Assembly (NCBI GenBank): GCA_004298015.1
Contig: SCSE01000001.1
Span: 87,207 to 151,206 of the forward strand
Direction: 5' to 3'
Length of the DNA stretch: 64,000 bases
Origin: Rhodanobacter sp.
GTDB taxonomy: Bacteria > Pseudomonadota > Gammaproteobacteria > Xanthomonadales > Rhodanobacteraceae
Shown here: one piece after another, positions 29,247 to 31,986 of the stretch
Layout: every line of letters begins with the position of its first letter
Position numbering within the stretch: the first letter of the stretch is position 1
The notes under the pieces: generated by a model
What the model was told of the DNA's origin: nothing
Database searches by the model: none
The model's input: the letters and a program-made list of their open reading frames with translations, nothing else
Made by a program: the position numbers and the translations under genes

Positions 29247-29915
29247 TTATCCGCGGCGGAAGGTGAAAGTCTCAAAAGCCTTGCCGAGGCGAGGCAGTTC
29301 CGGCGGCGTCATGCGGTGTGGGTGCGGCTGGCCATCGACCCGACATGCCTGCAGCGCCCAGTGCCTGACGCCGGCCTGCGCGAGTTCGTCAGCCAGGCGC
29401 CGCAGCTCGGTTTCGGGAAACAGTCCCGGATGCCAGGTGGTGCGGCATTCGTAAGCCACGCCGCTGTCCAGCACATGGCGCAGCGCGAGTGCGGCCTTGC
29501 GGCCACTGCCGTGGCCGTGGGTGACGCTGTCGTACAGGTGGAGCGGTGCCTTGATGTCCAGCCCGACCCAATCCAGCTGCGGCAGCAGCGTGCGAAGTCG
29601 AGCCGGATACATGCCGCCGGTATGCAGCCCGATCTGGTAGCCCAGTCCGCGCACTTGGGTGATTGCCGGGAGTAAGGAGGGTTGCAGGGTAGGCTCCCCT
29701 CCGGAGAACACCACGCCGTCGAGCAGGCCCTGGCGTCGCCGCAGAAACGCCAGAACCGACGTCCATTCGAGGTGGGTTTCGGCCCGCGCGGGTAGCAGAT
29801 GCGGGTTATGGCAGTAATTGCATCGCCACGGACAACCCTGCAGGAACAGCACCGCGGATAGCCGACCGGGAAAGTCGATCGTGGTCAGCGGTGTCATCCC
29901 ACCCACCCGGATCAT
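29247..29915 (-). CDS. nrdG: anaerobic ribonucleotide reductase activating enzyme
   Basis: The 222-residue radical-SAM protein has the iron-sulfur site QGCPWRCNYCHNP (CxxxCxxC) and SGGEPTLQ. It generates the glycyl radical on NrdD. Its ATG (29915) overlaps the stop of the preceding 64-residue glycyl-radical ORF (ATGA), so the two are translationally coupled. This fits its substrate being that small protein. It is close in type to the ssNrdG-like enzymes of Pseudomonas and betaproteobacteria. Confidence 0.93.
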   Translation of the reverse strand: MIRVGGMTPLTTIDFPGRLSAVLFLQGCPWRCNYCHNPHLLPARAETHLEWTSVLAFLRRRQGLLDGVVFSGGEPTLQPSLLPAITQVRGLGYQIGLHTGGMYPARLRTLLPQLDWVGLDIKAPLHLYDSVTHGHGSGRKAALALRHVLDSGVAYECRTTWHPGLFPETELRRLADELAQAGVRHWALQACRVDGQPHPHRMTPPELPRLGKAFETFTFRRG

Positions 29916-30106
29916 GCGGCGCGGGGCAGTCTGGCGGTCTTTTCAACGAAAAACACGCGCTCGTTATGCTCGCCCTGTTTCCCGATGTTGAAGCTCGATA
30001 CCGGGCGGTGATACCCCATTACGCGAGTCCAGACTTCGCAGCGTTGCCGCTCATTCTCGTGCAGGGTGACGGTGTGGCGATCAAATTGGGATGCGGATGG
30101 CATCAT
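29912..30106 (-). CDS. glycyl-radical mini-protein of class III ribonucleotide reductase
   Basis: The 64-residue ORF contains CEVWTRVMGYHRPVSSFN and GKQGEHNERVFF. RVxGY is the C-terminal glycyl-radical motif of NrdD enzymes; the radical would sit on Gly31. The neighbouring nrdD ends straight after its zinc-site cysteines and lacks this motif. The mini-protein has its own start (ATG at 30106) with AAGGAG eight nt upstream, lies 44 nt after the nrdD stop and overlaps nrdG by four bases. So it is a separate cistron rather than a sequencing frameshift. I infer that it supplies the radical domain in trans. Confidence 0.85.
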   Translation of the reverse strand: MMPSASQFDRHTVTLHENERQRCEVWTRVMGYHRPVSSFNIGKQGEHNERVFFVEKTARLPRAA

Positions 30107-30150
30107 GGGTGATTCTCCTTGCGTTGGGTAGCTGGTGCGGTGAACGGCGC

Positions 30151-31911
30151 TCAAGCGCAGGCCTGTGCGCGCTTGCGACTCAGGATGTTCTCGTCGCAGT
30201 TGGGACAAAACTCGTGTTCCCCGGACAGGTAACCGTGCACCGGGCAGATGGAGAACGTGGGCGTTACCGTCACATACGGCAGTCGAAAGCGGGTCAGCGA
30301 ACGTCGCACCAGCTCGCGGCAGGCATCGCCGCTGGACAGGCGTTCACTCATGTACAGGTGCAGCACGGTGCCGCCGGTGTAGCGCGACTGCAGTGCCTCC
30401 TGCCGCTCCAATGCCTCGAAGGGATCGTCGGTAAAGCCCACCGGCAGTTGCGAGGAGTTGGTGTAATAAGGCTGCTGGTCGCTACCGGCCTGCAGAATGT
30501 GCGGCCAGCGCTTGCGGTCCTCTTTGGCGAAACGGTACGTAGTGCCTTCGGCCGGCGTGGCTTCGAGGTTGTACATGTGGCCGGTTTGTTCCTGGAACTC
30601 GAGCATCCGGCCGCGCACGTGGTCTAGCAGGCGTACTGCGAAATCGTGGCCCCAGGCGCTCGTGATGTCATGGGCGTCAGCGGTGAAATTACGGATCATC
30701 TCGTTGATCCCGTTGACACCCAAGGTAGAGAAGTGGTTGCGCAGAGTTCCCAGGTAGCGCCTGGTGTAGGGGAACAGGCCCTGATCGATCAGCTCCTGGA
30801 TTCGATTGCGTTTGATTTCCAGGCTGCGCATGCCGAGAACCAGTAGTTCATCGAGCCGTTGCAACAGCAGGGGTTCGTCGCCCGCATGCAGGTAGCCAAG
30901 ACGGGCGCAGTTGATGGTTACCACGCCGAGACTGCCGGTTTGTTCGGCGCTGCCGAACAGGCCGTTGCCGCGCTTGAGCAACTCGCGCAGATCAAGTTGC
31001 AGGCGGCAGCACATCGAGCGGATCATGCAAGGGTCGAGTTCGGAATTGATGAAGTTCTGAAAATACGGCAAGCCGTATTTGGCGGTCATTTCGAAAAGCC
31101 GCTGCGCGTTCGCCGATTCCCACGGGAAATCGGCGGTGATGTTGTAGGTCGGGATCGGAAAGGTAAATACCCGTCCCTTGGCATCACCACGCGTCATTAC
31201 CTCGATATAGGCGCGGTTGATCATGTCCATCTCGGCCTGAAGCTCGCCGTAGGTGAACCCCATTTCGTCGCCGCCGATAACCGGCACCTGATCGCGCAGG
31301 TCGACGGGGCAGATCCAGTCGAAAGTCAGGTTGGTAAACGGGGTCTGCGTGCCCCAGCGGGACGGTACGTTGAGGTTGTAGATCAGTTCCTGGATGGACT
31401 GGCGTACCTCGTCATAACCAAGGCCGTCCTTGCGCACGAACGGGGCCATGTACGTGTCGAACGAGGAGAACGCCTGTGCCCCCGCCCATTCGTTCTGCAG
31501 GGTGCCGAGAAAATTGACGATCTGTCCCACTGCGGACGACAAATGCTTCGGTGGTGCGGCCTCGACCTTGCCGGGCACGCCGTTGAGCCCTTCATGCAAC
31601 AGGGTGCGCAGTGACCAGCCGGCACAATAGCCGGAGAGCATGTCCAGATCGTGGATGTGGATGTCGCCATTGCGATGGGCTTCACCGATCTCGGGCGGAT
31701 AGATCGTCGAGAGCCAGTAATTGGCGATGACCTTGCCGGAGAGATTCAGTATCAAACCGCCCAGCGAATAGCCCTGGTTTGCGTTGGCGTTGACCCGCCA
31801 GTCGCGACGGGTCAGGTACTCGTCGATGGCGTTGGCGACATCGACATAGACGGGCGCGGGGTCGGACGGGTGGCGTCGTGGGGCCTCTTGAGGGAAACCG
31901 GGTTCGTTCAT
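30151..31911 (-). CDS. nrdD: anaerobic ribonucleoside-triphosphate reductase, catalytic core without glycyl domain
   Basis: The 586-residue class III reductase makes dNTPs without oxygen. It has NANANQGYSLGGLILNLSG, NGDIHIHDLDMLSGYCAGWS, the NLNVPSRWGTQTPFTNLTFD stretch and SMCCRLQLDLRE, with cysteines in the expected active-site regions. The N-terminal ATP-cone of E. coli NrdD is absent. The C-terminus has a zinc-site remnant (ICPVHGY ... FCPNC) and then stops (SRKRAQACA) where the RVxGY glycyl-radical loop should follow. That loop is on the next ORF. ATG at 31911 follows GGAG by eight nt; an upstream TTG is possible. Confidence 0.93.
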   Translation of the reverse strand: MNEPGFPQEAPRRHPSDPAPVYVDVANAIDEYLTRRDWRVNANANQGYSLGGLILNLSGKVIANYWLSTIYPPEIGEAHRNGDIHIHDLDMLSGYCAGWSLRTLLHEGLNGVPGKVEAAPPKHLSSAVGQIVNFLGTLQNEWAGAQAFSSFDTYMAPFVRKDGLGYDEVRQSIQELIYNLNVPSRWGTQTPFTNLTFDWICPVDLRDQVPVIGGDEMGFTYGELQAEMDMINRAYIEVMTRGDAKGRVFTFPIPTYNITADFPWESANAQRLFEMTAKYGLPYFQNFINSELDPCMIRSMCCRLQLDLRELLKRGNGLFGSAEQTGSLGVVTINCARLGYLHAGDEPLLLQRLDELLVLGMRSLEIKRNRIQELIDQGLFPYTRRYLGTLRNHFSTLGVNGINEMIRNFTADAHDITSAWGHDFAVRLLDHVRGRMLEFQEQTGHMYNLEATPAEGTTYRFAKEDRKRWPHILQAGSDQQPYYTNSSQLPVGFTDDPFEALERQEALQSRYTGGTVLHLYMSERLSSGDACRELVRRSLTRFRLPYVTVTPTFSICPVHGYLSGEHEFCPNCDENILSRKRAQACA

Positions 31912-31972: not shown

Positions 31973-31986
31973 TTGATCTAGATCAA
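31973..31986 (-). promoter_or_regulatory. FNR/Anr binding site upstream of nrdD
   Basis: TTGATCTAGATCAA is an exact match to the FNR/Anr consensus TTGAT-N4-ATCAA. Its centre is about 68 nt from the nrdD ATG. It indicates oxygen-controlled activation of the nrdD/radical-protein/nrdG operon. Confidence 0.92.

Follow-up and report, generated by a model that had tools for sequence, protein, structure and literature searches.

A class III ribonucleotide reductase of Rhodanobacter sp. with its radical glycine very likely on a separate 64-residue protein

Gene Organization of the nrdD-nrdG Locus

The sequence analyzed was a stretch of 64,000 nucleotides from Rhodanobacter sp. (assembly GCA_004298015.1, contig SCSE01000001.1, positions 87,207 to 151,206 of the forward strand), hereafter referred to as the window, within which all positions are numbered. 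A three-gene operon of a class III ribonucleotide reductase (RNR) was found on its minus strand, consisting of the nrdD core, a separate open reading frame (ORF) for a 64-aa protein, termed here the mini, and nrdG. All features given below lie on the minus strand unless stated otherwise.

The nrdD core (30151..31911) starts with ATG and encodes 586 aa, in which the NRDD catalytic domain with the RNR barrel was recognized; against PRK08270.1, it scored 1038 bits. Class III RNR residues are present at three sites, namely MCCR at 300, GYC at 94, and NLE at 448. The finger-loop motif M300-C301-C302-R303 (31003..31014) includes the expected catalytic cysteine. The meaning of the finger-loop and active-site motifs was taken from the accessible part of PMC9669993; under the scheme given there, Cys96, Glu450, and MCCR 300-303 would provide parts for formate or thioredoxin as the reductant.

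The candidate zinc-site residues of the core, C556-x2-H559 ... C569-x2-C572, are encoded at 30196..30246. The core ends in ...SICPVHGYLSGEHEFCPNCDENILSRKRAQACA*, with the stop codon 14 residues past the last candidate zinc cysteine, and no RVxGY motif occurs anywhere in it. This is what the first-pass annotation, made from the letters of the window, had described: a core that ends just after its zinc-site residues and lacks RVxGY.

The gap between the core stop and the mini start measures 44 nt (30107..30150), and the mini frame therefore differs from that of the core. An AAGGAG (30115..30120), the ribosome-binding site of the mini, lies 8 nt ahead of its ATG. The mini gene (29912..30106) encodes a protein that reads MMPSASQ...CEVWTRVMGYHRPVSSFN..., with an alternative start possible one codon later, and carries the glycyl-radical motif RVMGYHRP within CEVWTRVMGYHRPVSSFNIGKQGEH. 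The predicted radical glycine of RVMGY is Gly31, encoded by GGG (30014..30016). The mini stop and the nrdG start share an ATGA overlap (29912..29915), and nrdG (29247..29915) encodes a 222-aa radical-SAM activase of the NrdG2 type (TIGR02495, 188.4 bits against a cut-off of 131.15). The separate ORF 44 nt downstream, its own AAGGAG, the RVMGYHRP motif, and the ATGA overlap had all been called in the first-pass annotation and were all recovered.

The PF13597 profile (NRDD, 562 positions) was matched by the core over positions 2-531 and by the mini over 530-562, both above the curated cut-off. Because of this coverage, core and mini together amount to one complete NrdD. In the whole genome (99.6% complete), no NRDD match was found beyond this one core and one mini, and thus no other complete nrdD, which the annotation had named as a finding that would speak against its proposal. 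The window genome also gave no match to PF01228, the Gly_radical domain of the pyruvate formate-lyase (PFL) type. Two matches to PF02867, the class I/II large-subunit family, were observed on its contigs C71 and C40, one of them in a 1114-codon open frame.

A perfect palindrome, TTGATCTAGATCAA, is located at 31973..31986 (strand not assigned), upstream of nrdD at 61 nt from its start codon. This sequence has a single match in the 64-kb window, with 0.03 expected by chance, and we take it to be an FNR/Anr/Dnr-type box. Anaerobic control of nrdD through this palindrome is likely.

No ATP-cone was detected in the core by a Pfam domain search. This agrees with the first-pass annotation, but the domain varies among close relatives: with the window's own core counted, 18 of the 120 core homologues listed carry the ATP-cone family PF03477. 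The missing ATP-cone does not belong to the split, since split relatives occur with and without one. ATP-cone loss as the cause of the split was likewise ruled out, as split cores with an ATP-cone exist.

Conservation of the Split

Of 5199 length-limited candidates, 5197 proved to be mini homologues at E ≤ 1e-3. Every one of the 120 mini homologues listed (the window's own counted) contains RVxGY, none of the 119 listed core homologues does, and RVMGY was invariant in an alignment of 18 minis.

A mini search restricted to one genome per species gave at least 572 confirmed places, of which the best 80 were analyzed. The genes were split at 78 of these best 80 loci, fused at one (L082, with a partial core), and without a detectable core at one (L040). 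Labels among the 80 included Burkholderiales, Pseudoxanthomonas, Stenotrophomonas, Pseudomonas cedrina, Thiobacillus, Afipia, and others, together with a few metagenome bins labelled as other phyla. The conservation that the first-pass annotation had proposed to look for was thus found.

Three genome surveys were evaluated for the NRDD family at E ≤ 1e-3, with split calls verified in the DNA. Among relatives, a match was obtained in 3 of 41 genomes, all split, and in the genus sample 3 of 25 genomes (own included) were NrdD-bearing, again all split. The class survey gave 38 genomes with a match out of 369 (28 split, 7 one-frame, 3 partial), and the phylum survey 57 out of 398 (15 split, 41 one-frame, 1 weak partial). 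With the three surveys pooled and each genome counted once, the mini was present in 41 of 41 split genomes, and none of the 45 one-frame genomes had a separate mini. Most one-frame genomes are accounted for by other NrdD subfamilies.

These counts agree with the earlier suggestion that the mini is obligatory and not a spare. A fused nrdD in close relatives, which would have pointed to a local frameshift, was not seen: the NrdD-bearing genomes of the genus were all split, and all 119 listed core homologues were without RVxGY. It was evident that the split is not damage or chance.

Three genomes, G599, G682, and G750, were counted as split, their DNA showing stops between core and radical piece. 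G682 and G750 belong to one genus (loci L313, L216, L219) and their NrdD is a distant form with 23% identity to the window core, in which an in-frame TAG followed by AAAGGG-TTAATA-ATG stands ahead of an RITGY piece.

Two plasmid loci were noted separately. On Bradyrhizobium japonicum pS11L-3 (L096), the nrdD core match is broken by an ISRj2 transposase gene, with mini and nrdG annotated alongside. On Allochromatium vinosum plasmid pALVIN01 (L093, 2495-2704), a lone mini is annotated as nrdD, and the 5-kb plasmid stretch annotates neither core nor nrdG.

Separate Translation and Selection on the Mini

Gene arrangement was compared over 79 split loci, among them that of the window, and the start codon of each mini was picked by a ribosome-site rule. 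All three frames were used, the mini frame relative to the core being distributed 34/27/18, with 18 of 79 minis in the core's own frame. Core and mini were separated by -41 to 415 nt, with a median of 34, and a recognizable ribosome site of its own was found for 77 of 79 minis. At one in-frame locus (L078), core and mini are separated by 7 in-frame stops. In genome G699 (L300, G699:C4), mini and nrdG come first as a pair, and the core lies on the same strand at a distance of approximately 9.5 kb. These arrangements cannot be reconciled with any one mechanism of frameshifting or read-through.

Differences between minis at codon positions 1, 2, and 3 were 0.152, 0.132, and 0.488 per codon, respectively (2730 codon comparisons). 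The median nonsynonymous divergence (dN) was 0.139 over 78 pairs; the synonymous divergence (dS) was finite in 40 of those, with a median of 1.73. The codon-position pattern and the median dN indicate that the mini is a selected protein.

Structure Model and Proposed Mechanism

An AlphaFold model was computed with core and mini linked as one chain, the stop being read as Ser, with the real linker and with an alignment (A5) that included viral relatives. At a predicted local distance difference test (pLDDT) score of 88, the model placed the mini where solved NrdDs hold their glycyl-radical domain. A search of the mini against PDB sequences gave no match up to E 10.

Because RVxGY sits in the mini and not in the core polypeptide, the system is regarded as a two-chain variant of class III RNR. 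We consider it highly probable that the enzyme is an obligate two-chain one, in which the mini, as a protein of its own, bears the radical glycine and docks in trans; judged from the sequences, a radical carried in trans is very likely.

In the proposed mechanism, the NrdD core without a radical motif would receive the 64-residue mini, which is predicted to dock into it in trans. The activase NrdG, acting on the mini on or with the core, would likely install the radical on Gly31. This residue would then hand the radical to the finger-loop cysteine of the core (C301/C302), as Gly580 does in T4 NrdD. The enzyme would make deoxyribonucleoside triphosphates (dNTPs) in anaerobic growth under FNR/Dnr-type control. 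Oxygen cleavage at the radical glycine would then probably cost only the 64-residue part, for which a new copy could be supplied, while the core is kept.

Comparison with Known Systems

The same split operon is present on megaplasmid pHG1 of Cupriavidus necator H16, with a 676-aa core, a 66-aa mini named nrdD, and nrdG. The H16 core is 83% identical to the window core and differs in its longer N-terminus, which was taken as an ATP-cone from its length. Without the mini, its computed mass is 76.19 kDa, and its Gly650 lies in PTHGYLA, in the zinc loop. H16 NrdDG was reported to be essential for complete denitrification and to have an anaerobic role (PMC2864759), and in the accessible part of that account the mini goes unmentioned. 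The CH34 locus (L095) is likewise split.

YfiD/GrcA and T4 Y06I, as described in the available passages of PMC8683613, are comparable in being small separate glycyl-radical proteins that complete a large enzyme in trans. They differ in that they repair an oxygen-cleaved full-length PFL and co-exist with an intact one-chain enzyme, whereas the window genome has no full-length NrdD. The window mini is also unlike YfiD/GrcA in matching PF13597 only, and not PF01228.

One-chain NrdDs of the PRK08270 subtype (Actinomyces oris, Acidiphilium cryptum, Geoalkalibacter) share the core residues and the RVxGY domain with the window system, but hold the radical domain within the catalytic chain, as seen in their sequences and in one annotated gene that spans both matches. 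Identity to the window core was approximately 75% for A. oris and Acidiphilium and 50% for Geoalkalibacter.

The split class II RNR NrdJa/NrdJb, as far as it is covered in the accessible part of PMC9669993, also has its catalytic chain in two genes, divided near the C-terminus, but is a B12 enzyme. Fragmented phage nrdD genes are likewise in pieces, but through introns, inteins, homing genes, or broken genes, and the accessible part of that account (PMC3653736) does not mention a free-standing radical domain. The split is visible in databases, yet the open-licence literature library searched yielded no description of an NrdD whose radical domain is a protein of its own.

Alternative Explanations

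Several points weigh against an obligate two-chain enzyme. The alignment behind the model contained natural one-chain rows, so the predicted docking is partly built in, and an earlier model from a shallower alignment (A4) was poor (pLDDT 69) before A5 took its place. In the structural comparison, T4 1h7a, T. maritima 4u3e_B, and three P. copri entries (Gly711) showed a register shift of one residue, and the alignment of 4con extended only to residue 539. Cys23 of the mini is non-essential to the motif and is absent from some phage minis. The radical piece after an in-frame TAG in G682 and G750, which belong to another subfamily, may reflect either an independent split or read-through. Lastly, Siedow, in 1999, is said to have described a 76.2-kDa NrdD from H16 and may have placed the radical at core Gly-650.

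This last point would favor a core that holds its own radical glycine (Gly-650 in C. necator H16) in HGYLxGE, a stretch flanked by the zinc ligands, with the mini as a YfiD-like repair part, and the computed 76.19 kDa of the H16 core and the location of Gly650 in PTHGYLA agree with it. However, one-chain relatives have HGYLxGE and RVxGY together, so HGYLxGE is no substitute for RVxGY, and HGYL, enclosed by the zinc ligands, precedes the position occupied by T4 Gly580 and T. maritima Gly621. The occurrence of the mini in all 41 split genomes and of a separate mini in none of the 45 one-frame genomes is the opposite of what a repair part would give, and this explanation is considered improbable. 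If the 1999 work did place the radical there, the H16 radical site would have been assigned to the wrong glycine. A mini serving as an NrdD-derived regulator or decoy that binds NrdG or the core, with no radical in catalysis, is suggested by phage-contig minis without a core beside them, as if the domain could live apart from NrdD. It would leave the core with no radical glycine at all, and the motif is invariant as RVMGY in the 18 aligned minis and retained as RVxGY in all 120 listed; we hold a decoy to be quite improbable.

Programmed frameshifting or stop read-through, joining core and mini into an ordinary one-chain NrdD, would be compatible with the mini frame being open upstream into the core end at some loci, with the frame shared at 18 of 79, and with the single in-frame TAG of G682 and G750. 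Against such joined translation stand the 34/27/18 use of frames, gaps of up to 415 nt, the own ribosome site of 77 of 79 minis, the 7 in-frame stops of L078, and the approximately 9.5 kb between the G699 genes, which together make it very unlikely in this subfamily. A recent frameshift, an assembly error, or a decaying gene is the least credible explanation and can scarcely be entertained: nothing speaks for it beyond the existence of one-chain relatives, and it is opposed by the split at 78 of the best 80 loci and in 41 genomes and by the purifying selection under which the mini evolves (median dN 0.139 versus median dS 1.73). The two-chain enzyme with the radical glycine on the mini is thus the preferred interpretation.

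Evolution of the Split

A larger tree of 115 cores was built by a quick method with support from the Shimodaira–Hasegawa-like approximate likelihood ratio test (SH-aLRT) only; it omitted rows below 40% identity, incomplete rows, and two of every three of L007-L086. Of 75 split rows, 73 fell inside one group of 77 (support 99), in which four one-chain rows were nested, from Acidiphilium and Acidithiobacillus plasmids, Actinomyces oris, and G259. Two viral split rows lay outside this group. Six changes between split and one-chain forms were needed, four of them forced by well-supported branches, compared to approximately 33 with shuffled labels; owing to long branches, single placements are unsure.

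A smaller tree of 84 rows, which omitted 7 incomplete loci and held only four one-chain rows, required 3 changes against a shuffle mean of 4.0, i.e., hardly fewer. The nearest one-chain forms seen, at approximately 74-76% identity to the window core, occur in other lineages; one protein search returned only near-copies of A. oris NrdD. Our reading of these sequence trees is that one old fission was probably followed by a few re-fusions, and that viral lineages underwent fission independently once or twice.

Phage-Borne Minis and Viral NrdDs

Minis were also searched for on viral contigs (IMG/VR), and the best 80 of 165 loci were analyzed (L220-L299). At 79 of 80 viral loci, the mini occurred without core or nrdG in the fetched stretch, as determined by tblastn with the window proteins; many stretches were short, the upstream part exceeding 3 kb at 52 of the 80 loci and both flanks exceeding 3 kb at 29. 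Fifty whole contigs, hand-picked among those longer than the fetched stretch, gave one NRDD match each, to the radical segment alone, though the contigs may themselves be fragments, so that a core may lie elsewhere.

Genes adjoining phage minis included those for tape-measure, tail-fibre, and virion structural proteins, terminase, portal, transposase, and endolysin, and a match of this kind was obtained for 8 of 10 scanned neighbor proteins (six loci). The viral mini family corresponds to phrog_4132, which is labelled as of unknown function. Against cultured phages, the window mini had no match at E ≤ 0.01, and a phage-contig mini had 2 weak matches at E ≤ 1 (47.4% and 45.5% identity). A second mini was observed in G305, a genome with a split NrdD of its own; it lies on another contig (L190, G305:C3, 3303-3491, minus strand), between ssb and recT genes in a prophage-like setting.

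Some phage contigs carry their own NrdD, split or one-chain. In four viral one-chain NrdDs (L112, L117, L152, L158), a glutaredoxin/thioredoxin-like domain is fused behind the radical motif, which suggests a built-in thiol reductant. The viral NrdDs of L144, L147, L152, L153, L154, and L157 have insertions at or adjacent to the MCCR finger loop that range from roughly one hundred to several hundred residues, with breaks near core residue 301; an intein splicing domain was detected in L152 and none in L144.

The lone phage minis suggest phage-borne spare parts, and by analogy with YfiD/Y06I they might repair or re-arm an enzyme. A broader proposal is that the NrdD radical domain is a mobile stand-alone part with an ancient split lineage, and that phages widely carry the mini alone, as the RNR counterpart of T4 Y06I, with which a host NrdD that is split or has been cleaved by oxygen could be re-armed during infection. 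In our judgement, the arguments for and against this proposal are evenly balanced.

Significance

Glycyl-radical enzymes generally hold the radical glycine in the catalytic chain, and oxygen destroys the chain by cutting there (general knowledge; also in the accessible part of PMC8683613). The two-gene form of class III RNR is real, widespread, and old, and is present in many other Proteobacteria. If the radical glycine normally resides on its own 64-residue protein, the radical part would become disposable, and such an enzyme would suit an organism that often meets oxygen. With two purified parts, radical transfer across a protein-protein interface would become directly testable.

For the phage-contig minis, the results offer a predicted function for PHROG family phrog_4132. 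Spare parts for other glycyl-radical enzymes appear as speculation in the accessible part of PMC8683613, and the idea would be extended beyond pyruvate formate-lyase.

Databases name the two pieces apart, as 'ribonucleoside triphosphate reductase' and 'nrdD'. Because of these separate names, studies of Cupriavidus, Pseudomonas, or related bacteria in which only 'NrdD' is expressed or deleted may be dealing with half an enzyme.

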